A stretch of DNA of 22,186 bases, taken from the IMG/VR virus record IMGVR_UViG_3300035698_034612, positions 1 through 22,186 of that record; one strand, given 5' to 3'. The position numbers and the translations under genes were made by a program. The notes under the pieces were generated by a model. It was not told the origin of the DNA. It saw nothing but the letters and a program-made list of their open reading frames with translations, and ran no database searches. Positions 2,378-14,376 of the stretch are shown here, piece by piece. The stretch's first letter is position 1; each line of letters opens with the position of its first letter. The stretch comes from a virus.

Positions 2378-2807
2378 AGTTTTTACCATTGGTTTTACTA
2401 AGAAGAATGCTAAAACTTTCTTTGGGTTGTTAGAAACAAATAAAGTTAAAACACTAATCGATGTCAGACTTAACAATGTATCTCAACTTGCTGGGTTTGC
2501 TAAGAAAAATGATTTGGAGTACTTCTTAAACAAAATTCTTGGTATTAAATATATTCATCTACCAGAAATTGCTCCTACAAAAGATATTCTTGATGATTAC
2601 AAGAATAAACTAATTAGTTGGGAAGTATATAAGAAAAGGTATATAACTCTATTAGAAAAAAGAGTTGCTTACAAATCAATCGATATCAATATTCTTAGCT
2701 ATGCATGCTTCCTTTGTAGCGAACATACGGCTGATAATTGTCATAGACGTTTAGCTGTCGAATATCTTCAAAAGTATTATAAGAGGATATCTATAAAGCA
2801 TATTTAA
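2370..2807 (+). CDS. DUF488 family protein (second copy)
   Basis: This second, diverged DUF488 protein is 145 aa from the ATG at 2370. I prefer that start to the upstream in-frame ATG at 2340. A GGAAGGAG ribosome-binding site lies at 2356-2363, and the protein then opens directly with the family strand KVFTIGFT. It keeps the DVR motif (residues 31-33) and the C-x(7)-CHR segment (C116; C124-H125-R126). It lacks the SVPYSR part found in the first copy. Tandem, non-identical DUF488 genes suggest either a heteromeric complex or two related activities in the operon. The next gene begins 46 bp downstream. Confidence 0.85.
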   Translation: MIKVFTIGFTKKNAKTFFGLLETNKVKTLIDVRLNNVSQLAGFAKKNDLEYFLNKILGIKYIHLPEIAPTKDILDDYKNKLISWEVYKKRYITLLEKRVAYKSIDINILSYACFLCSEHTADNCHRRLAVEYLQKYYKRISIKHI

Positions 2808-2853
2808 TTTATTATTAATCGATATTTAGTAGTTTATAATTCATGAGGCTTGA

Positions 2854-3720
2854 ATGAGTATATTTCACTATACAGATAAAGAAAGTTTATTATCAATAAT
2901 TAAGAACAATGAACTTTGGGCAACCTGCAGTGATTTTCTTATTGATGCTGATGAATTAAATCATTTTAAAGAGCTATTTATATCTATCAATGAAAAAACG
3001 AATATTCCAGCATGGAGAATAATCAAGAAAATTTTTATTAAGCGTTTTGAGAAAGCGTCACAAAATGTTTTTATAATTTCATTCAGTACAGAAAAGGACG
3101 CGTTCAATTTATGGTCATATTTTTCAAATAATAATGGATATAACATAGAGTTTAGTGAAACTGAATTATATAGATATCTAAATTTGATTTTCAAATATAA
3201 TGAACATACCCCTAGTCATATGACAAATAACTATATTAATAACAGCCAAGATATTATTGTCCCAAATTATGAAATCATTCAAAAAAATACAATGTGTTGT
3301 AAAGTGAAAATGGGATCAGTTATTTATGAAGATAATATGAAAGCTAAAATAATATCTGAATTGAGTTTTGGAAAGAGGATTGAAGGATTAGATAATAGTG
3401 ATGTAACTGAAATGATATTAGAAATATTGATGGATTATATATATTTTTATAAAAAAGAAGGTTTTAAAGCCGAATCTGAATATAGAGTGGTTTTTAAGCT
3501 TCTAGATAATGGAGAACAAGAAAAATTAACCTGGTGTAGAACTCGAAATAATGTTGAAGTACCATATCTAAGAATTAGATTAAATAACAACTGTATTAAA
3601 TCAATAAATGTAGGTCCCTGGGTTAATAAAACTATATTACAAGATTCAATGAAACTTTTCTTAGTAAAAAACAACTTGAATATAGAGAATGTCAATATAT
3701 CAAAAATGAACATACGATAA
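2854..3720 (+). CDS. DUF2971 family protein
   Basis: This 288-aa soluble protein matches the DUF2971 pattern. It starts with FHYTDKESLLSII, then LWATCSDFLID-DELNHF (an Asp/Glu-rich loop). These are followed by a FIISFSTEKDAFNLWSYF block (around residues 72-89) and a late E-x-EYR segment (FKAESEYRVVFK, near residue 210). DUF2971 proteins are often found in accessory and defence-rich islands, but no reaction has been firmly assigned. Only a partial match to a ribosome-binding site precedes the ATG (GAGGCTTG). The gene follows the DUF488 pair in the same orientation with similar AT-rich composition, so it is probably part of the same transferred island. Confidence 0.82.
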   Translation: MSIFHYTDKESLLSIIKNNELWATCSDFLIDADELNHFKELFISINEKTNIPAWRIIKKIFIKRFEKASQNVFIISFSTEKDAFNLWSYFSNNNGYNIEFSETELYRYLNLIFKYNEHTPSHMTNNYINNSQDIIVPNYEIIQKNTMCCKVKMGSVIYEDNMKAKIISELSFGKRIEGLDNSDVTEMILEILMDYIYFYKKEGFKAESEYRVVFKLLDNGEQEKLTWCRTRNNVEVPYLRIRLNNNCIKSINVGPWVNKTILQDSMKLFLVKNNLNIENVNISKMNIR

Positions 3721-3755
3721 ATGTTTTAAATATTAATTAAATTAAATGAGGGTTT

Positions 3756-4478
3756 ATGAACTTTAACTTATTTACAATTGATTGGACTGCAATATCTTCA
3801 ATACTATCTTCTGTTACAATTATTATTCTTGTAATTAATTTGGTGGAGATGAGACACCAACGAAAATCAAATTTTTTACCAAAAATATGTTTGAAAAATA
3901 ATTCATTCAAGATTCTAAGAAAGAAAGATAAAATCCCAAATACCTGGGCAGATTTTGATGGAAACTCAAGTACGTTGCCCTTATATAATATAGAAATAAT
4001 TAATGCTGGATTAGGGGCTGCTGTAGAAATAGAAATATCATGGGATATTGATATTAAAAAGATTCACTCAAATATTAACGAACTCATGAAAAATAAAGAA
4101 TGTAAAATATCAAAAGGTGATTATAAGGAACAATACTTTTACGAATCAGCAATTCCACACCTTTTTGGATTTGTCATAAAAGATAATATTGATTCCACAA
4201 TATTGAATATATTACCACAAAATGGCTCAGATTATATCAGACTTCCTGATCAATTTTTTTACTATATTTCATATTATGAATTTGAAGTTTTTAGACTAAG
4301 TAAAAAAAGTCGACAAGTAAAAGAAATTGATGAAATACAAATTACAATTAAGTATGAGGATATTGATCATAATAAGAAAAAGCAAGTTTTCAGTTGCAAT
4401 ATCGAACTTGTTCTTTATGGTGAATCATTTAGGGGAACCACAGACGTACTAGGAATTATATCATTTAAAGCAAAATAA
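3756..4478 (+). CDS. Membrane-anchored protein of unknown function
   Basis: I do not recognise this 240-aa protein. One N-terminal transmembrane helix is visible (about residues 10-30, AISSILSSVTIIILVINLVE). It is followed by a basic stretch (MRHQRKSN), which predicts that the remaining ~200 residues are cytoplasmic. The soluble part is rich in beta-like segments with short charged loops and has no motif I can name. The ATG follows a GAGGG ribosome-binding site. It is the last gene of the AT-rich rightward island. The phage late operon approaches from the opposite side, so the two blocks are convergent. Confidence 0.7.
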   Translation: MNFNLFTIDWTAISSILSSVTIIILVINLVEMRHQRKSNFLPKICLKNNSFKILRKKDKIPNTWADFDGNSSTLPLYNIEIINAGLGAAVEIEISWDIDIKKIHSNINELMKNKECKISKGDYKEQYFYESAIPHLFGFVIKDNIDSTILNILPQNGSDYIRLPDQFFYYISYYEFEVFRLSKKSRQVKEIDEIQITIKYEDIDHNKKKQVFSCNIELVLYGESFRGTTDVLGIISFKAK

Positions 4479-4645: not shown

Positions 4646-6880
4646 CTATTTTTCTATTTTCATAACAAATTCACCAACAAGTCCCAATTCTGAGTACGCT
4701 TTTTTTGCTTCACTATCTATCCCATAAGAAGCAGCGCGATCTGCCATGTCCGGAGTCATTTGCCAGAAAGATCCTGAAGAAATCGGATTAGTTCCGAAAC
4801 CCTTTTGCGGATCCTCAATCAAGTCCGGAAGCTCGTTTGATTTGAGTCCAAGGACTTCAGCTTCTTCAGCATAGATCCCGCGCACCGTTGACCGACAAGA
4901 ATAATGAAGTGGTGGAATATTATTGTCCCAGAACTGATCACTGTAAGCTCTGATAATATTATTACGCTTGATACAGATTTCAGTCTGCCGGGAATCATCT
5001 ATCCCAAGAAACTCCAGGAACAATGGTTCGTTTACTTCAAAACTCATCATGCGACCGGTGTTATACGCAGTCTGGATATTTGTCCGGTAAACATTCTCCC
5101 AGTACCAGGGATCTTTACCAAATCCAGTTTTTTGCAATAATTCATCAGCTCCGAGCGATTCAATGAAATCAACCATACTCTTCCCCTCATCCAGGGCAGA
5201 GACTAAATAGGTTCTGGCTTTGTTTATCGCATCAATGGTGGTAAGCCTGGTGGAAGTAAATGCACGAAAGCGAAGCTGGGCAGAAAGTAAATCATACTCA
5301 TCCCGGCTTAAAGGAACTGCATTCCCTAATATTTCTATAGCTTTTGCAAATGTGAGATTCCCTTCATCAATAGAGAATTCTACATCGGCAAAATCTGAGG
5401 ATCCTGAAGGTGCTCCATGCTGCATACCAGAAAGTGCAGAAAGCATCAAAGATTCAAAGACTGCAGTACTCATCTCAAGGGGAAGAAGTTCCGGAACATA
5501 ATCCTGCTCCAGTAAGGATTCATCAGTCTTCAAAGCATTTAGGAAAATATCCAGGGAATTTTTTATATATTGCTGGGAGACTACTAATGATCGCCTGGCT
5601 ATGGTATCCAGGACTTTTGCGTTCTTCGTTTCCTTCTCTATGATTGACTTGTGGTTATTTGTGAAGTTTTTTTTTACACCCTCGGGGTCTGAGAAATCAT
5701 TTTTTCCATTTCCGGGGGTTATCTGGGGAACCGTTTGTGCAAAGACATCAGTTTCATCTTCAGGTTCGGGTAGCCGGTACCGGGAATAAAGTTTTGATTT
5801 TGAAATCGGGATACCTTTTTCTATGGCAGTAGCTACCATCTCCCATGAAGCATAGTCACCAGTGTCAATTTCCACTATAGGAACAACAGAACCTTCCCCA
5901 AAGTTCAGGATGATTATCATCTCCACTAATTCCTGTAACGTATAAGCTAAAGCCCTGGCATCATTTTCCACAAAGCCCTGCATGGTATCTGCATGCACTG
6001 ATCCAAGGGCGCGGGATCCAGCATCCGGATTATTAGTTGCTAGACTCTGTCCGGTTAATGCATAAGCAATTTGGACATCACAGGCTTGAATTAATACATC
6101 AAAATCCCGCAGCGCTCCGGACATTTCTATAGTCTTAATATCTTTTACATTAGCGAGAGATCCGCCTGAGCCCGATTCTATCTCTTGTAGGATTCCTGCA
6201 AGTGAATCAGCTCGTTCCTGAGTTTTGGTTGGATCCCCGCTATCTTCGAAGAGGGCAATGATTGAGGGCACTGAGAATTTCTCAGTTGCGGTTAACCAGA
6301 ACTGGAATCCGAGCTGCTTGAATTTATATGCCCAATAGGCTGATTTTAATATCGATACCCCATTGGGTTTATTATGGGTATCTCCTTCATGTCGGTGTAT
6401 GATCCATTTATAGTTTTGGTTTAATAGTCTTCTTCCGGAAGAGTCTGAGTAATAGAGATTCCCTTTGGTATCATAAGAGTAGTTGTTGATATTGTAGCCT
6501 TTGAGATAATCAATGAGCAAATATCCTTTCTCTCGTTTCCAGACCAACTCCTCTGGCCGGTGTCCATAGGTCAATGCTCCTGTTAGAAGCAGCCATCCCC
6601 ATTTACGCAGCTGCTTTACTTCCATGAACTCATCAGCAAATTTATCAATCTTGCTGTTTCCGGTTTTGTTTAAGAACACCGGCAGATTCATCGTGGCATT
6701 ACGCCGGGTATAAAAAAGGGATCCCACTCGACCATCGGTAAGCATCTCATCATAGAGACCGAGTCCCTCACCAGTACGCTGTACTACTTCATCCGGATTA
6801 GGCATATAGGAGATGAAGGAAGAAAAATCCTTGATAAACTCTACAGTAAGCTTTCCTTTTGTCGGTATATTTTCAGCCAT
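4646..6880 (-). CDS. Mu-like portal protein (gp29/DUF935) fused to MuF head protein
   Basis: This 744-aa product combines two Mu proteins. The first ~400 residues match the DUF935 portal: an early PNPDEVV segment, SLATNNPDAGSRALGSVH in the middle, then WEMVATAIEKGIPISKSKLY and LPEPEDETDVF. The portal ring is the channel through which DNA enters the head. A linker follows. Residues ~570-690 match the Mu gpF-like minor head domain (RTNIQTAYNTGR from 599, DDSRQTEIC at 627-635, PPLHYSCRS ending near C662). In Mu these are separate genes (29 and 30). The gene overlaps the terminase end by 8 bp. No virion protease or capsid gene follows on its 3' side; the next genes are the convergent AT-rich island. 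Confidence 0.92.
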   Translation of the reverse strand: MAENIPTKGKLTVEFIKDFSSFISYMPNPDEVVQRTGEGLGLYDEMLTDGRVGSLFYTRRNATMNLPVFLNKTGNSKIDKFADEFMEVKQLRKWGWLLLTGALTYGHRPEELVWKREKGYLLIDYLKGYNINNYSYDTKGNLYYSDSSGRRLLNQNYKWIIHRHEGDTHNKPNGVSILKSAYWAYKFKQLGFQFWLTATEKFSVPSIIALFEDSGDPTKTQERADSLAGILQEIESGSGGSLANVKDIKTIEMSGALRDFDVLIQACDVQIAYALTGQSLATNNPDAGSRALGSVHADTMQGFVENDARALAYTLQELVEMIIILNFGEGSVVPIVEIDTGDYASWEMVATAIEKGIPISKSKLYSRYRLPEPEDETDVFAQTVPQITPGNGKNDFSDPEGVKKNFTNNHKSIIEKETKNAKVLDTIARRSLVVSQQYIKNSLDIFLNALKTDESLLEQDYVPELLPLEMSTAVFESLMLSALSGMQHGAPSGSSDFADVEFSIDEGNLTFAKAIEILGNAVPLSRDEYDLLSAQLRFRAFTSTRLTTIDAINKARTYLVSALDEGKSMVDFIESLGADELLQKTGFGKDPWYWENVYRTNIQTAYNTGRMMSFEVNEPLFLEFLGIDDSRQTEICIKRNNIIRAYSDQFWDNNIPPLHYSCRSTVRGIYAEEAEVLGLKSNELPDLIEDPQKGFGTNPISSGSFWQMTPDMADRAASYGIDSEAKKAYSELGLVGEFVMKIEK

Positions 6881-8432
6881 TCATATATCTCCTCATCATC
6901 TGTTTTACATAATTACCACGTCGCTTTATCCCAGTTCCCCTGATAATCATATTGGTATTCACTGATATCAGTACCGCATAATAGCCTGCATCAAGCAGAC
7001 CATCATTTACCCCCGGGGTGGGAAAGCTGTACCACTGCTCCATCTCTGGTTCACTTTTAAAAGAATCCCGGTACCGCATGATTCCGGCTTCTACATAGGG
7101 TTGAATCTGCATAATACGTTTCTTCTTTGAAGTGGATCCGGGTTTGACACCAATACAGGGAAGATAGATTCCCCGTTCTGCTGCAGCCTCTAATATCCAT
7201 TTGCGATAGATCTTCTGAAAGGCAACTTCCTCAAAAGCAATCTGCTCAGGGTTATAGACTTCATACATGCTAAAAAGCTGATCCATAAGATCCTTAGCTG
7301 TCCCGTAGGGCTTATTCCACCAGTCGATGATGTCCCGGTATTTCTTGATCTTGTCATAAGCACAGACTGCTATTGCTGCATCATCAGAGCCTTCAGCATT
7401 CGGATCCACTCCGAAGGTGATCCGCCGGGTTGTTAAATCAATATCGTTGATATTAAACCAGGCAAACCAATTCTTCCGGAACATCTTATCTGCTGCAGAA
7501 ACTGATAGGGATAAATACTCAACTTGGTAAATATCAGATCCTACTTCCCGGCGTTTGAGTTCAAGGTCAGCCCTACTCCACCGTTCCGGCCAGATCGGGG
7601 TTCCATCTTCAAGTTGTGCAGAAAAACGTAAGGGGAGAAAGCCTTCGAGCTTTCCACTTACTGCTTCATATAACATCCGGGTGGCCGGGTCATTTTCATT
7701 GAAATGCGTATTTACAAAGATGATAAATGCATCCTTGCCTAAGTTCATAACCGTACGCCGGATCCACCGGTTTATCTTCTCACAAGTATCCAGGTTATCG
7801 GCTTCTTCGTCTTTTACAATGTCATCCAGGATTACGAGGTCTGGACGTGCCTCACGGAACCTCAGACCACGAGCAGATCCCCCTTTACTCCTAGCAGCAA
7901 TGGCCGTCCCATTTGAAAGTTCAATAAACTTTGCATCCCACCTACTCCCTTTGAGATCTCCGAAGTCTTCTAAGATAAGTTCATTCTCATCAAACTCACT
8001 TTTGATATTCTCCAGAAACAATTTTGCATCATCATCGTTGTTACCAAAAATTACGGTAAATTTGTTCTTCTTGAATAATGCCCTCCATAATGGATAGGCA
8101 AATGAGAACCGAACAGATTTAGCGTGATCTCTCGATTCTATATCGATGATTCCCCGGAGCTTCTCAATAGGAGAGAAATAGTTATGGAACATCTTTCTGG
8201 TATGCGTTTTAAGCCGCTCGATATCCTGCTGATTAACCGCACTTTTATTCACGATGTCATAAATGACTAAGTGATAGGCAGCCGGTTCACAGGAGAAGTA
8301 ATGCGGGAGATAGGTATTGCAGAAAAACTCAAAGTCCTTTTCAGCTTTATTAATACGATCCTGTTTACTTTGATCCTGAGTATCGTACTTGCTGATTAAC
8401 TCGCTGATAAGCGGGGTGTTCTTAGTATCCAT
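6873..8432 (-). CDS. Large terminase subunit (Mu gp28-like)
   Basis: This 519-aa packaging motor ATPase/nuclease pumps phage DNA into the prohead. The ATPase half has a degenerate Walker A, SRDHAKS (residues 100-106), as in Mu-type terminases. It also has a Walker B PDLVILDD (197-204) and a coupling motif FVNTHF (239-244). The RNase H-like nuclease half shows its acidic residues at D343 (TFGVDPNAEG), E401/E402 (AFEEVAF) and D477/D481 (NDGLLDAGY). Length is normal for the family. It starts at an ATG that overlaps the upstream gp27-like stop by one base (TAATG) and overlaps the portal gene by 8 bp, so expression is coupled in the late operon. Confidence 0.95.
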   Translation of the reverse strand: MDTKNTPLISELISKYDTQDQSKQDRINKAEKDFEFFCNTYLPHYFSCEPAAYHLVIYDIVNKSAVNQQDIERLKTHTRKMFHNYFSPIEKLRGIIDIESRDHAKSVRFSFAYPLWRALFKKNKFTVIFGNNDDDAKLFLENIKSEFDENELILEDFGDLKGSRWDAKFIELSNGTAIAARSKGGSARGLRFREARPDLVILDDIVKDEEADNLDTCEKINRWIRRTVMNLGKDAFIIFVNTHFNENDPATRMLYEAVSGKLEGFLPLRFSAQLEDGTPIWPERWSRADLELKRREVGSDIYQVEYLSLSVSAADKMFRKNWFAWFNINDIDLTTRRITFGVDPNAEGSDDAAIAVCAYDKIKKYRDIIDWWNKPYGTAKDLMDQLFSMYEVYNPEQIAFEEVAFQKIYRKWILEAAAERGIYLPCIGVKPGSTSKKKRIMQIQPYVEAGIMRYRDSFKSEPEMEQWYSFPTPGVNDGLLDAGYYAVLISVNTNMIIRGTGIKRRGNYVKQMMRRYMNG

Positions 8433-8956
8433 TAGGAATCCTTTGTCGCCAGAGCGGAAACAATAAGGGTAAGCTTCCCGAGGATCTCGGGGTATTGTTT
8501 GAGTTCATTCTGTAATCGAGAGAGGATATCTGCTTTCGCTTTATTATACCCATTCTGGTAGGTTAACCGGTTCCGAGCAATCCTGGTCTGAGCTGAAGAT
8601 AACCGGTTAATAGCCAGGATCAGTTCATTGGGGTTCTCGAAGGTTACCTCATCGATAGATTGCACAAAATCAAAGATCTGCTTGGTCATGAGGTTGGTGG
8701 TAATTTCGACAACATCGGTATTCGGATTATCCCGAACGGTATCAATCAAGACTTTTGCTTCGGTGGCTGCCTTTTTGTATTGGGTGGCCACACTTTTAGA
8801 GGTTTTTATTGATCGCCTGATGGCTTCCCGGGAGATATCAAAACCTTCCTCCTGAAGGACTTTCTCAATATCTTTGATAGTCATCTTGTCCTCTTCGTAC
8901 ATCTGGACAATTCGTTCAATAATACCCATAAGGTCAGCTTTTGCTCTTCTTCCCAT
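8432..8956 (-). CDS. DUF3486 protein (Mu gp27-like, probable small terminase)
   Basis: This 174-aa protein opens with MGRRAKADL, the typical start of DUF3486. An N-terminal helix-turn-helix follows (around residues 24-50, TIKDIEKVLQEEGFDISREAIRR), which is expected to bind DNA. The rest is helical. Position directly before the large terminase is the same as Mu gp27. It is inferred to be the small terminase subunit that recognises phage DNA and hands it to the motor. It abuts its neighbours: its ATG lies at the stop of the gene before it, and its stop overlaps the TerL start. Confidence 0.85.
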   Translation of the reverse strand: MGRRAKADLMGIIERIVQMYEEDKMTIKDIEKVLQEEGFDISREAIRRSIKTSKSVATQYKKAATEAKVLIDTVRDNPNTDVVEITTNLMTKQIFDFVQSIDEVTFENPNELILAINRLSSAQTRIARNRLTYQNGYNKAKADILSRLQNELKQYPEILGKLTLIVSALATKDS

Positions 8957-9255
8957 TACAGCCCCTCCTCAACGATCACCCCGGGGTCTGTGGCTACCCC
9001 GTCGGCAAGATTAACTCCCGGAGGAAGGATCTTATAAAATCTTACCTTCTTCTCCAGCTGGGCAGGATGTTTCCGGATTATACGGTCGATGTACTTACTA
9101 TCAACTAAATATTCCAGGGCTTTCCTGATATCAGAGGGTTCATAGAACTGGTATTTGATTTTGATAATAGATTCTTCTTCTACTTGTTCCGGATAGACTG
9201 CAGATAAAAATGCAAGAATGGATCCGCGTAATACCGGGCGTCTTGAATTGATCAT
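8956..9255 (-). CDS. Small late protein in the Mu gp26 position, winged-helix-like
   Basis: This 99-aa protein has a pattern of short helices and a strand pair suggesting a winged helix (SILAFLSAVYPEQVEEESI, then EPSDIRKALEYLVDSKYIDRIIRK). It ends in an acidic tail. It holds the position of Mu gp26, between a gp25-like and a gp27-like protein, where similar small helix-turn-helix proteins occur in related phages. Its ATG overlaps the stop of the gp25-like gene (4 bp). A role in packaging or head assembly is inferred from position only. Confidence 0.65.
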   Translation of the reverse strand: MINSRRPVLRGSILAFLSAVYPEQVEEESIIKIKYQFYEPSDIRKALEYLVDSKYIDRIIRKHPAQLEKKVRFYKILPPGVNLADGVATDPGVIVEEGL

Positions 9256-9623
9256 TTTGCTACCTCATTGTGTTTCTCGACATGGCGATCAATACGCTTT
9301 CGCAATTCGCCAACTTCATATTTCCAGCCACCAAGGGCTTCATACATATCCTCTTTTGATGCGAATCGTTGCTCAATATAGGAAATCCGTAAACTTTGAT
9401 CTGCAAGTAATTGTTCTAACCGTTCGTCTCGTTTATCTGATTTTAATTCCAAATCAAGTACTTTCTTAGAGAATAAGGTGCTTTGCTGGGTAATTGATTT
9501 GGTAAGGGATTTGACGGTAAACACCAGGATACCAATGCCAATTCCAATAGCCAGGATTAACACAAACAAGGTGAAAGTTGGACCAATTCCTCCGGCAATT
9601 CGCAGAATATCTGTTATGCTCAT
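9252..9623 (-). CDS. Mu gp25-like (DUF2730-like) membrane coiled-coil protein
   Basis: This 123-aa protein has one transmembrane helix (about residues 15-36, TFTLFVLILAIGIGIGILVF). A long charged coiled coil follows and ends ELRKRIDRHVEKHNEVAK. Size, topology and position before the gp26/gp27 genes match the DUF2730/gp25 protein of Mu-like phages, whose job is not well defined. Lysis or membrane-associated roles are possible. It begins one base after the stop of the spanin-like gene and overlaps the next gene by 4 bp. Family assignment is moderate because coiled-coil sequence is low in information. Confidence 0.65.
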   Translation of the reverse strand: MSITDILRIAGGIGPTFTLFVLILAIGIGIGILVFTVKSLTKSITQQSTLFSKKVLDLELKSDKRDERLEQLLADQSLRISYIEQRFASKEDMYEALGGWKYEVGELRKRIDRHVEKHNEVAK

Positions 9624-9624
9624 C

Positions 9625-10185
9625 CTACCCCCAAATTGCCAGTGCTATGACACCCAAAAGGAGTAACAGAGTTCCTCCATCATTGATTGCTTTTTCAAAC
9701 TGCATCCACTTGATTTCTTTCTGCAAAGAGGTAATCTCATCCTCCTGAGCCTGATCCCTTTTTTCGGTTTCGTCGACGTAGTTCTGCAAGGAGCTCTTCG
9801 TTTCGCTTTGCGAGTTCTCCAATTCGTTTATTGTCTGTGAGGCTTGACTCAACTCCTCCTTCGATTTCTCCTGCTGACTCAACGATGTTTTCACATCCTC
9901 CTTCAATGGATTCAATTCGTTCCAGAGCAGACTCACTTGATTCGATAGCTGAATCGAGCTGTTCTGCACCTGAATCAACGTGCTCTCCTGCTTCTCCTGC
10001 AAGATCGATATCGTCTGTGAGTTCATCACTAACTCGATCAGGATCTCCTCCGTGCTCATCGATTCCGGATCCGGAAGATCGTTTCCGGAAAGCCCTAACG
10101 GCAATAATGCACAACACAATAATAAGACTAATACCAATAAACCAAAGTATGATTTTACTCTGCATCTCACTTCACCCCTCCTCAT
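9625..10185 (-). CDS. Spanin-like protein with signal sequence, coiled coil and C-terminal TM
   Basis: This 186-aa protein (from ATG 10185) has a basic N-terminus and a hydrophobic segment (15-33) containing a double Cys (LLLCCALLPLG). A Gln/Ser/Glu-rich coiled coil spans about residues 45-160. The last 17 residues form a transmembrane helix (TLLLLLGVIALAIWG). Signal or lipoprotein-like N-terminus, periplasmic coil and C-terminal TM is the topology of unimolecular spanins, which fuse inner and outer membranes at lysis. The lipobox is not classical, so a plain signal peptide is possible. The ATG at 10185 has no ribosome-binding site. GTG at 10170 is 6 nt after AGGAGG and is a better start (181 aa). 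The whole 142-aa gene at 10165-9737 lies inside it in another frame. Confidence 0.7.
   Translation of the reverse strand: MRRGEVRCRVKSYFGLLVLVLLLCCALLPLGLSGNDLPDPESMSTEEILIELVMNSQTISILQEKQESTLIQVQNSSIQLSNQVSLLWNELNPLKEDVKTSLSQQEKSKEELSQASQTINELENSQSETKSSLQNYVDETEKRDQAQEDEITSLQKEIKWMQFEKAINDGGTLLLLLGVIALAIWG
9737..10165 (-). CDS. Nested inner-membrane spanin-like protein
   Basis: This 142-aa protein is encoded wholly inside the 186-aa gene in a different frame. It starts with an uncleaved-looking TM helix (residues 5-24, IILWFIGISLIIVLCIIAV) followed by RAFRKRSS. A Gly/Asp-rich linker and a heptad-like coil follow (about 66-131, with repeating Ile/Leu and Glu/Ser). It ends in a basic Arg/Lys tail. 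This is the layout expected for an i-spanin. An AGGAGGGG site ends 9 nt before its ATG, the best ribosome-binding site in the area. Both overlapping frames give coherent membrane/coiled-coil proteins, which random antiphase translation rarely does. Assignment as a spanin partner is inference. Confidence 0.6.
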   Translation of the reverse strand: MQSKIILWFIGISLIIVLCIIAVRAFRKRSSGSGIDEHGGDPDRVSDELTDDIDLAGEAGEHVDSGAEQLDSAIESSESALERIESIEGGCENIVESAGEIEGGVESSLTDNKRIGELAKRNEELLAELRRRNRKKGSGSGG

Positions 10186-10247: not shown

Positions 10248-10595
10248 TTATGCAGAGCCGGGAAGTTCAGATCGGGTTTCACTTCTAGCAGTTGGTTTGA
10301 TATCAGAGGCAACTCCCTCTTCAGAGATAATCCCTCCGACCATTTCGCCAATGATATCCAGTGATGGGGTTTTTGCACCTTTGATAATGGATTTCCCAAA
10401 AAAGGCACCAATGATGGTAAAAGACAGGAACACAATTGCCTCAACCGGGATAATTCCGGCAGCTGGGGATTTAATGTGTCCAAGGTATGTCACCGCAACA
10501 AGTGTGATGACGATGAGAAAGAAGCAGGCGATTGCCCCTATCCAGGTGCGGGACCGGTATTTGTTATACCCTGATACAGTTACACTTTTTTTCAT
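10248..10595 (-). CDS. Holin-like two-TM membrane protein
   Basis: This 115-aa protein has two transmembrane helices (about residues 18-38 and 48-70), separated by a short loop (GHIKSPAAG). A ~45-residue hydrophilic tail carries mixed charges. Small size, two TMs and position first in the late operon, directly before the spanin-like genes, suggest a holin, which permeabilises the inner membrane to trigger lysis. I see no endolysin gene beside it; one would be expected elsewhere in the phage. A GGAGGAG site lies 6 nt before the ATG. No sequence family could be confirmed, so holin is a topology- and context-based call. Confidence 0.6.
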   Translation of the reverse strand: MKKSVTVSGYNKYRSRTWIGAIACFFLIVITLVAVTYLGHIKSPAAGIIPVEAIVFLSFTIIGAFFGKSIIKGAKTPSLDIIGEMVGGIISEEGVASDIKPTARSETRSELPGSA

Positions 10596-10711: not shown

Positions 10712-12037
10712 TTAAGTTCCTATTGGGTTGATAAAATCAATAAGCAAAGGGCTGCTACTGTTAATTATAACTTTCCTTGAAATAAATTCAATTAATTCAA
10801 TATCATAATATAATTGCCTTGTGGCATTTGCATAGGGAAGTAAAATATCAAAATCAGCACTTGATGATTTTGTATGAACTATTCTGCATCTGATTTCATA
10901 AATTCTTTGTGAAACCTCATTAACCAAATCAGCTTTTTTATTTTTTAAAGATATTTTCTGTTTTGAAATTTTATTACCTTCATTTTCTGAATAAAAACCA
11001 AGTCGCTCATAGTCAGCCTCAAAAAAATCTCGCAGTTCTGCATTGAATGTACAGGCTGAAATTGTAGCTTTCAATTGCTCATTTTCATTTCCAAAAGCAC
11101 CACCTCCACTCGATAATTTTATTGCAGTAATAATTTTTGATATATCGGAATCTTTGTTAGGATTAAATCTTGGATCTTTTATTATATTTTGAATTTTCTG
11201 TTTCGCAGCTTTTTTGGAATATGTAGGAAAGTAAAATTCAAGAGTTTGATAAAATGCTAAGAATTGAAATGTTGGCATGTTTTTTGATTCTTTAGCATAC
11301 CAATAGAGAGACATTGATTCTAAATCATAGGCATATTTGGATTCAGATATTTTAGCAGAATTGTCAATGAACCTATACTTTCTATTTTGTTTTTTTCTTT
11401 GCTCTCCAGAGGTCTTATCAATAGTTTGAAGATAAATAGGGATTTCAAAAGCTAAATCAATTTGAAAAAATATTGAATTTGCTATAATTTCCAACCCATC
11501 TCGTGATGCATCATGAGTTTTTATATCTATATTTTCTATCCTCAAAGTAATTGTTCTTCTTGAAAATCCTCTACCACCTTTAGATCTTTTCAATAAATTA
11601 AATTCTTTGGAACCATATCCAATTGAAAGTGTAAAATTATTTGACGAAGGTAAATCAATTTTACTAACTGTTTCTGTATCAGTCTCAACTAGATTATTAC
11701 CTTCTGTATAATTAGACTTATTCATCATTTCATCTAAGGTCTTAAGAAAATGCATACCATCAAAATCAGGGCTTTTAACTTCAGCTTCAATTACTTGATC
11801 TCTTTCTGACCATATTGCCTCATATCCATCAATAAATCGAAAATTTAAAAAATCTATATTCAAACAAGACTCAACACGGTCTTCAGTTAGTGCTAATCTG
11901 CAATCAAATACCTTGCGTCCAGCTGGTACTTTAAAAACAATCCTTGATACACTATCAGGATTTTCATCACCATGGATTTCATATTTAATATTGGCTTTAT
12001 CAAATTTTTCAATTAGCAAGTCTCGTTTCATGTTCAT
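10712..12037 (-). CDS. HEPN-motif protein, candidate RNase effector
   Basis: This 441-aa soluble protein is not in a family I can name with certainty. Near its C-terminus a helix carries IYEIRCRIVH (R383-x4-H388), an exact RxxxxH catalytic motif of HEPN ribonucleases. A Thr and an all-helical stretch with Tyr-rich ends (YDIELIEFISRKVI) follow, as in HEPN folds. The ~370 residues before it mix beta and alpha segments and could be a sensor part. A large N-terminal region plus C-terminal HEPN is the layout of anti-phage proteins such as ApeA, but I claim only similarity of layout. GAGGGG precedes two possible starts: ATG 12037 at short spacing and ATG 12031 at better spacing. It follows the 187-aa membrane protein gene by 56 bp and is AT-rich. 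Confidence 0.65.
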   Translation of the reverse strand: MNMKRDLLIEKFDKANIKYEIHGDENPDSVSRIVFKVPAGRKVFDCRLALTEDRVESCLNIDFLNFRFIDGYEAIWSERDQVIEAEVKSPDFDGMHFLKTLDEMMNKSNYTEGNNLVETDTETVSKIDLPSSNNFTLSIGYGSKEFNLLKRSKGGRGFSRRTITLRIENIDIKTHDASRDGLEIIANSIFFQIDLAFEIPIYLQTIDKTSGEQRKKQNRKYRFIDNSAKISESKYAYDLESMSLYWYAKESKNMPTFQFLAFYQTLEFYFPTYSKKAAKQKIQNIIKDPRFNPNKDSDISKIITAIKLSSGGGAFGNENEQLKATISACTFNAELRDFFEADYERLGFYSENEGNKISKQKISLKNKKADLVNEVSQRIYEIRCRIVHTKSSSADFDILLPYANATRQLYYDIELIEFISRKVIINSSSPLLIDFINPIGT

Positions 12038-12807: not shown

Positions 12808-13875
12808 TTATTCTTCTTGCTCCTGGGGATAAGGGACTTGAGGTGCTGCAAACCATCCCCTAGATGAATTATTATGCGTTAGAATGGTAGATTTTTCTGT
12901 TGTATAAACAATCCCACCTCTATGTATAAATCCTCTTATTACTGATTTTCTTGGGTGGTCACTATCTTGGGGAGAGGTACAGACAAAAGCTTCAAATTTT
13001 CTACTTTTATCATACTCCGATTGAAGACGGCTGCCTAACCAAGTATCAAGAATCTCTGTTGATACATTGTGTCTTGATCCATGGTGGGGAATTTGGATAA
13101 TATCAATCCCGGGAAGAAACAACCCTGCAGAAGGAGCATATGCTGCAGCTTCTTTTAATGCTTCACGACCTGCATCTCCAGTTAATAATATTTTTCTATC
13201 ACAGAGTTTTGCGTATTGGATTATACTCATTTCATTTTCAGTACTGGTTCCGTTAGCTGAAAATATTTCTTCTCCCCATAGAGACCTAATAAATGAGAAT
13301 ATCTTTCTAACAGTTTTTCCTAAAGCAGTCGAAAAACTTTCTTCAAGCATTTTAATAGATTCTGGAGTTTTATCTGATTCAACTATTAAATCTAAATAAC
13401 GCGTTTTTGTTGGTGCTAATACTGTAAACTCTCCAATCTTTGCAGACTGAAAAGGTTCGCGTATCGGGATCCCTTTTTCTTCTGCAATTTTTTCCAATGC
13501 TACAATTGATGGGTAAATATCTTTTAGCCTAATTTTGAGATTATCAACATTTGTAAATCTACTGAATCTGTCAATTATTTCAGCTGCATATATCCAAGGT
13601 CTTAACATCCAGAGTTCTTCAACATTATAATATTCTAAAATCTTTTTTAAACCTCCAGTATGATCAGCATCAGGGTGGGTCACTATAACAGCATCTATTT
13701 TGCTTGGAGAATCATAGTATTGATTTATATGTTCAATTATATTTTCACCATTATCTTGAAAGCCACCATCGGTAATATGAATCTGAATTTTCTCATTTTT
13801 CTCATAACGTAAAGGAATTGCATCAGCACTTTTTTTTGACTGTGTTTTCAGAAAATCAATTTCAAAAAAATCCAT
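12808..13875 (-). CDS. ComEC-type metallo-beta-lactamase fold hydrolase
   Basis: This 355-aa protein has the metallo-beta-lactamase fold of the ComEC/Rec2 C-terminal type. Metal ligands are visible in HPDADHTGG (H67, D69, D71, H72), LLTGDAG (D234) and PHHGS (H264, H265). A further His lies in SDHPRKS (H307). The motif NEMSIIQ (214-220) matches the conserved ENEMS strand of this type. There is no signal peptide or TM, so it is cytoplasmic. Related enzymes cut phosphodiester bonds in nucleic acids or nucleotides; the substrate here is unknown. It starts 3 bp after the stop of the membrane protein gene upstream, preceded by AAAGGGGA, so the two are one translational unit. The 150 bp after it (12658-12807) hold no gene or clear signal. 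Confidence 0.85.
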   Translation of the reverse strand: MDFFEIDFLKTQSKKSADAIPLRYEKNEKIQIHITDGGFQDNGENIIEHINQYYDSPSKIDAVIVTHPDADHTGGLKKILEYYNVEELWMLRPWIYAAEIIDRFSRFTNVDNLKIRLKDIYPSIVALEKIAEEKGIPIREPFQSAKIGEFTVLAPTKTRYLDLIVESDKTPESIKMLEESFSTALGKTVRKIFSFIRSLWGEEIFSANGTSTENEMSIIQYAKLCDRKILLTGDAGREALKEAAAYAPSAGLFLPGIDIIQIPHHGSRHNVSTEILDTWLGSRLQSEYDKSRKFEAFVCTSPQDSDHPRKSVIRGFIHRGGIVYTTEKSTILTHNNSSRGWFAAPQVPYPQEQEE

Positions 13876-13878
13876 AAT

Positions 13879-14376
13879 TTAGTTATCCCCTTTATTTAAA
13901 TTTTCAACTCGCTCTTTTACATATTTAGTCTGTTTCCTGTATGATAAGAGGAATAAAATAAATAGAACTATGATAATGATAAGTGGGCTCCATTTTCTTA
14001 GCCAAAACAGATGGTTTAATAATTTTTCATAGCCAGGTAGTAAAAGCAATGCTAGGAACATTGTACAAATTGTTCGGTACATATTGTTTTCTTCTGATAG
14101 TATTTCGATTTTAAAATCCAATTTGCATGCTTTTAAAAAGTATTTAGTTTCTGCAAAGTGTAAAAACCTTACTGCTTTCAAAATAGGTTCAAGAATAATA
14201 GAACCTAATCTACTTATTATTAAACCAATAAAATAATATATAAAGATATTGAGAATTATATTTTCTTGATTAAATGAGAAATTTGTAATCTTTTCTGAAA
14301 TAGCAACAAACATAACACCCGGTAATAGATAGTTAAAAATGTTGTAAGAAGAAAGTTTCTCAAATAATTCCTTCAT
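13879..14376 (-). CDS. Multi-pass membrane protein partnered with the MBL hydrolase
   Basis: This 165-aa protein has three clear transmembrane helices (about residues 40-62, 101-120 and 129-146) plus a weaker N-terminal hydrophobic stretch (13-27) containing NYLLPG. It ends in a basic tail (YRKQTKYVKERVENLNKG). The NYLLPG start and ISRLGSIILEP segment resemble conserved small membrane proteins I associate with accessory islands; no function is established. A GGAG ribosome-binding site precedes the ATG. The MBL gene begins just after its stop, so the two probably form a two-component system with a membrane part and a hydrolase. Confidence 0.7.
   Translation of the reverse strand: MKELFEKLSSYNIFNYLLPGVMFVAISEKITNFSFNQENIILNIFIYYFIGLIISRLGSIILEPILKAVRFLHFAETKYFLKACKLDFKIEILSEENNMYRTICTMFLALLLLPGYEKLLNHLFWLRKWSPLIIIIVLFILFLLSYRKQTKYVKERVENLNKGDN

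Follow-up and report, generated by a model that had tools for sequence, protein, structure and literature searches.

Two almost co-extensive out-of-frame membrane protein genes, probably a spanin-like lysis pair without an outer-membrane lipoprotein, in Mu-like phages of spirochaetes

Can one stretch of phage DNA encode, in two frames and over almost its whole length, two membrane proteins, and do these proteins act as spanins? The question is raised by a window of 22,186 bases (the whole stretch of DNA that was analysed), which represents a Mu-like phage or prophage with a Mu-type transposase, a small terminase Gp27, a large terminase and a portal, and whose host, judging from its relatives, is probably a spirochaete. 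An earlier note on this DNA had described a 142-aa ORF lying fully within a 186-aa ORF on the minus strand, and both ORFs were found where it had placed them, the longer one opening at ATG 10185 and running from 10185 to 9625. The short gene is called A and the long one B hereafter, and all the examined pairs have B in the +1 frame of A. In the window the pair is flanked by a 115-aa membrane protein on one side and by the packaging genes on the other, with the following features:

9737..10165, minus strand: gene A, 142 aa, with an N-terminal transmembrane (TM) helix, a helical/coiled-coil domain, 'AELRRR' and a basic tail; i-spanin-like type II topology (predicted)
9625..10170, minus strand: gene B, 181 aa from GTG 10170, with a signal-peptide-like N-terminus without lipobox, a long helix and a C-terminal TM; +1 frame of A
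10248..10595, minus strand: 115-aa membrane protein with two hydrophobic stretches, at the holin position
9252..9623, minus strand: 123-aa protein with TM and coil, downstream of the pair and outside it, syntenic in relatives
8432..8956, minus strand: small terminase (Mu Gp27-like), synteny marker
6873..8432, minus strand: large terminase (TerL), used for finding relatives

Elsewhere in the window, two adjacent genes (12808-13875 and 13879-14376, minus strand) strongly match PDC-M48B (E 7e-159) and PDC-M48A (E 2e-63), a candidate defence pair of PADLOC, and are found within an AT-rich block (~ 30% GC) with early genes on one side and the lysis region on the other. A 441-aa gene of the AT-rich block (10712-12037, minus strand) shows weak matches to MauJ and to PADLOC DzbB (E 7e-6). 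A second PADLOC candidate defence pair, PDC-M45A/PDC-M45B (DuOB domain, DUF488), is matched by two adjacent genes on the plus strand (1407-2377), with a DDE transposase gene (3-1268) beside them.

Direct searches of viral contigs and phage records with either window protein gave no relative, and single-protein scans with the small terminase or the portal gave none either. Relatives were reached via TerL, through alignments and then through whole-genome TerL searches; they are Mu-like prophages, the closest ones largely from Spirochaetota, and mostly MAG contigs. The nearest single-protein TerL match, L002, is a Clostridium-like prophage with no such pair and was set aside. In the order of Sphaerochaeta genome G001, the Sphaerochaetales, TerL was matched in 15 of 139 genomes, and the same almost co-extensive pair is present in 14 of these 15 while the last one, L202, displays an Rz/Rz1-like pair instead. 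ORF inspection shows that L200 and L229 carry the pair. The almost co-extensive form is also observed in two Treponematales loci, L230 and L235. Furthermore, L014 (= L234), a Treponema MAG contig, exhibits a nested pair of more divergent sequence (3429-3770 and 3433-3900) with starts 4 nt apart and a lipobox-like FFPGC in A, which is possibly a lipoprotein version of A.

In most other Treponematales loci the pair overlaps only partly (125-293 nt) and in the same phase, as in L092 (4882-5235 and 5093-5500, +1). In these Treponema-type pairs A has 'TPAADLV'-like residues, B has 'EGYKAG' and matches PHROG 38323 (unknown function), and the pairs likely constitute a second spanin-like family of Treponema prophages. 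Homology between the Sphaerochaetales-type and the Treponema-type pairs was not established, the hhalign probability being 19% for B and 43% for A, for which the TM alone was aligned; hence an evolution of full nesting from partial overlap is not claimed.

Whether both frames are coding was examined with several independent comparisons. Pairwise BLASTP of the window against its relatives was too weak alone, and the similarity in the RSSGSG and DLPDP segments stems from a single piece of DNA translated in both frames, so that profiles with shuffle controls were relied on instead. A profile of A and a profile of B, each built from 16 aligned copies with the window included, match the same pair-bearing loci as well as L200, which is outside the profiles. 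When the window was left out, the profiles scored window A at 45.6 bits and window B at 56.6 bits, compared to maxima of 19.7 bits (A) and 21.9 bits (B) for controls in which the protein of the other frame was kept and its codons were shuffled, a control that matters given that a homologous protein in one frame by itself raises the similarity in the other to some extent. Moreover, permutation of the synonymous codons of window B left A open in 0 of 2000 cases, with a mean of 5.5 stops, and drawing the codons of B from the locus usage instead gave a mean of 10.6 stops in the A frame. In the reverse shuffle, using the codons of A, B was open in 1.9% of the permutations and in 0% of the draws from locus codon usage. 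Homologues with one frame repeatedly broken, which the earlier note had named as the result that would speak against the pair, were sought as well: among the copies matched by the A and B profiles none shows frame-breaking in only one gene, and neither A nor B is broken in any of the 14 Sphaerochaetales copies.

The earlier note had also proposed codon-position conservation as a check, and the phase test on L198 and L199 displays constraint in each frame. The differences amount to 28/166 at B1/A2, 58/166 at B2/A3 and 51/167 at B3/A1. Indeed, the second codon position of B, which is usually under the strongest constraint, varies as much as the third since it coincides with the third position of A, and the lowest variability is observed at B1/A2, where changes are non-silent in both frames. 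The downstream genes of the same two loci show the usual strong third-position excess, with values of 0.07/0.03/0.50 for the gene just downstream of the pair. This dependence of substitution on phase shows that A and B are both under purifying selection. A simulation was then considered in which the observed counts of silent and non-silent changes were placed at random with one frame free, and this simulation, which is crude as it spreads non-silent changes uniformly, rejects a non-coding B in 7/7 pairs (≤ 15/500) and, on identity, a non-coding A in 3/7 pairs (0/500, 0/500 and 2/500). Could B be the only gene, and the A frame an accidental ORF within a coiled-coil gene? The codon composition of coiled coils does tend to keep other frames open, and in some close pairs (L191/L194) the identity of A alone does not exceed the expectation under no selection, but this reading is highly improbable given the complete absence of open shuffles, the score of the A profile far above its control, the codon-position pattern of A and the unbroken A of the 14 Sphaerochaetales copies. 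Shuffles, leave-window-out profiles, phase test and simulation agree with the claim that both frames give real genes, and as judged from these sequence comparisons the nested pair is genuine, with two coding frames.

The start region was next considered, for which the earlier note had proposed, if B starts at GTG 10170, one ribosome-binding site common to both genes. In the window, GTG 10170 is located 5 nt ahead of ATG 10165 and a single site is indeed found upstream of both:

10177..10182, minus strand: Shine-Dalgarno AGGAGG, 6 nt before the GTG of B and 11 nt before the ATG of A

As the 5-nt spacing of the starts is conserved in relatives, GTG 10170 is favoured over ATG 10185 as the probable start of B, giving a protein of 181 aa. 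Across copies the start codons of A and B are 2-5 nt apart, often as ATGTG, and most of the Sphaerochaetales copies have the holin stop and both start codons packed into a few bases. A typical start region is GTGATGTG or ATGATGTG, in which the ATG of B overlaps the GTG of A, and the window shares with L191 the form RTGAGATG, in which A begins 5 nt after B. Upstream, no copy has more than one Shine-Dalgarno-like match, and its strength varies: L230 has no match of at least 4 bases and L191-L194 have only AAGG. The nesting varies as well: A is inside B in the window, L191-L193 and L195, and elsewhere B slightly outlasts A or the reverse. Hence the stable trait is the near-coincidence of the starts and the identity of the inner gene is not stable among relatives.

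The topology of both products was assigned from hydropathy and helix prediction, and lipobox calls were made with a simple motif rule:

10085..10153, minus strand: predicted N-terminal TM of A, residues 5-27
10072..10170, minus strand: predicted signal peptide of B (hydropathy), no Cys at the lipobox position
9628..9687, minus strand: predicted C-terminal TM of B, residues 162-181, past the end of gene A

The DNA at 10072..10170 thereby codes for the signal peptide of B in one frame and for the TM of A in the other. A consists of the N-terminal TM, a short basic/Gly-Ser linker, a helical domain and a C-terminal AEL-x-RR, which is common to most copies, and the charge pattern round its TM is ambiguous. 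The motif 'DLPDPxxMxxxEILxEL' is found in window B and appears as DP-x-x-M-T-x-x-E-I across the B proteins, nearly all of which have a hydrophobic C-terminus in the relatives. AlphaFold models, which speak to helix content and not to orientation or complex, display in A and B alike a hydrophobic N-terminal helix and one long helix, with helices at residues 3-30 and 43-138 in A (mean pLDDT 77.5) and a single long helix at residues 40-180 in B (mean pLDDT 88.0, 9-sequence alignment). Searching structures with the B model returned nothing significant, which is unsurprising for a single long helix. If straight, the ~ 120 periplasmic residues of this helix would measure ~ 18-19 nm at 0.15 nm per residue. 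On these predictions A resembles an inner-membrane protein of type II, and B a type I protein that is secreted and anchored at its C-terminus. The predicted N-terminal TM of A and its putative periplasmic helical domain (hydropathy, AlphaFold helices) are those of an i-spanin, in line with the i-spanin-like description of the short protein.

The neighbourhood in relatives places the pair in a lysis cassette. In Sphaerochaetales prophages a Hol44 superfamily V holin is found directly upstream of the pair (tested in L188 and L191; PHROG holin), at the position of the 115-aa membrane protein of the window, and the holin gene overlaps the B start in relatives. The window copy of this 115-aa protein (10248..10595) gave no significant family match and no endolysin was identified in the window itself. 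An amidase endolysin stands directly before the pair in L014 and a pesticin-type lysozyme upstream in L013. The slot of the pair in L202 is occupied by an i-spanin-like gene, which matches PHROG Rz-like families weakly, and by an overlapping ORF that has the lipobox GILASC and a Pro-rich segment:

L202, 2280-2609 and about 2515-2811, reverse strand: Rz/Rz1-like pair

This suggests that one lysis system was replaced by another, and the presence of an Rz/Rz1-like pair in the same slot makes a spanin-like lysis role likely for A and B. Position, number of partners and predicted topology together point to such a role as the likely one.

No match to known spanin families was found for window A and B, and PHROG Rz-like spanin families gave weak matches (best E ~ 5e-4) to only a few A relatives. 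The motif rule called no lipobox in window A or B, nor in any B. Applied to ORFs ~ 2 kb either side of the 16 pair loci, it called lipoproteins only in L235 (A itself, weak) and L192 (one 51-aa upstream ORF). The pair was therefore rejected as a canonical two-component spanin, the outer-membrane lipoprotein being absent by the motif test, and B was rejected as a u-spanin as its signal sequence has no Cys at the lipobox position. Hence the u-spanin-like description of the long protein stands for its predicted C-terminal TM and fails for the lipobox. For these reasons the pair is named spanin-like and not spanin. An independent origin of nested spanins, as the earlier note had suggested, is plausible.

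We consider it probable that A and B are an overlapping lysis-cassette pair, spanin-like without an outer-membrane lipoprotein, of Mu-like phages of spirochaetes. Ribosomes would start on one mRNA stretch at either of two out-of-frame starts a few nucleotides apart. A would be anchored in the inner membrane via its N-terminal TM and expose its helical domain to the periplasm, and B would be exported via its signal peptide and anchored by its C-terminal TM, leaving a periplasmic helix of ~ 120 residues. The two would most likely form a coiled-coil complex which would disrupt the outer membrane once endolysin action has opened the wall, without the usual lipoprotein. The coding and conservation of both frames, the fixed +1 phase, the clustered starts and the position in a lysis cassette are shown by the comparisons above, and topology, complex formation and outer-membrane disruption are what we infer in this explanation.

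Other roles can be considered for two small membrane proteins, neither of which has an outer-membrane anchor, encoded in relatives directly after a holin gene and overlapping it. Regulation of the holin or the endolysin (antiholin, lysis timing), or superinfection exclusion, would be consistent with all these traits, but the long periplasmic helices predicted in A and B, the Rz/Rz1-like pair that takes the slot in L202 and the maintenance of two separate components in nearly every relative make such a role rather unlikely. The absence of a recognised lipid anchor could also be questioned, as spirochaete lipoboxes are relaxed and lipobox-like residues are found in L014 A ('YFFPGC-AS') and L235 A ('LLAC'). 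The pair would then be a conventional two-component spanin, with A as the o-spanin lipoprotein and B as a type I i-spanin. A type I, C-terminally anchored protein has indeed been proposed as a possible i-spanin (Kongari et al. 2018, PMC6139136). However, window A, like most A proteins, lacks a suitably placed Cys, and the Cys is missing in L230, the nearest relative of L235, which leaves this conventional arrangement improbable.

The preferred reading, a spanin-like pair without lipoprotein, can be compared with known systems. Like the embedded or overlapped type of lambda Rz/Rz1, the pair comprises two membrane-associated proteins encoded out of frame by the same DNA in a lysis cassette, the first with an N-terminal TM and a periplasmic coil, in the +1 frame relation. 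In contrast, B, its second protein, carries a C-terminal TM and is no lipoprotein, and the two genes cover nearly the same stretch from starts 2-5 nt apart, whereas the inner gene of lambda starts halfway. Indeed, in a survey of embedded o-spanins, ~ 70% were found to begin 0.4-0.5 of the way along the i-spanin (Kongari et al. 2018, PMC6139136). B resembles a u-spanin of the T1 gp11 type by its predicted N-terminal export signal, periplasmic domain and C-terminal TM, but it is without lipobox and a second overlapping protein, A, is conserved alongside it. The Rz/Rz1-like pair of L202 has the same position relative to the terminase genes and the same +1 overlap, but it has the lipobox GILASC and a Pro-rich o-spanin-like product, and the overlap is confined to the 3' part of the i-spanin-like gene. 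Finally, PHROG 38323, the Treponema-type B, shares the slot, the signal peptide and the C-terminal TM, and a gene with an N-terminal TM partly overlaps it in the same phase, but that overlap is only 125-293 nt and no significant profile similarity to window B was observed.

Little on lysis was found in the open-access literature for phages of this phylum. Among surveyed Gram-negative phages, 91 of 677 (~ 13%) had no recognisable spanin, and type I inner-membrane proteins were suggested as possible spanins and left out of that survey (PMC6139136). B matches this unconsidered topology, and the pair is thus a concrete, conserved candidate for the no-spanin gap. Tentatively, it may represent a distinct class of outer-membrane disruption, in which co-extensive genes with near-coincident out-of-frame starts would give two inner-membrane coiled-coil proteins, one of type II and one of type I, acting together with no outer-membrane lipoprotein. 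The pair is also a clear case of two proteins of ~ 140-180 aa, both N-terminally hydrophobic, encoded by one DNA with starts overlapping or a few nucleotides apart, and such pairs will probably escape gene callers that disfavour overlaps.
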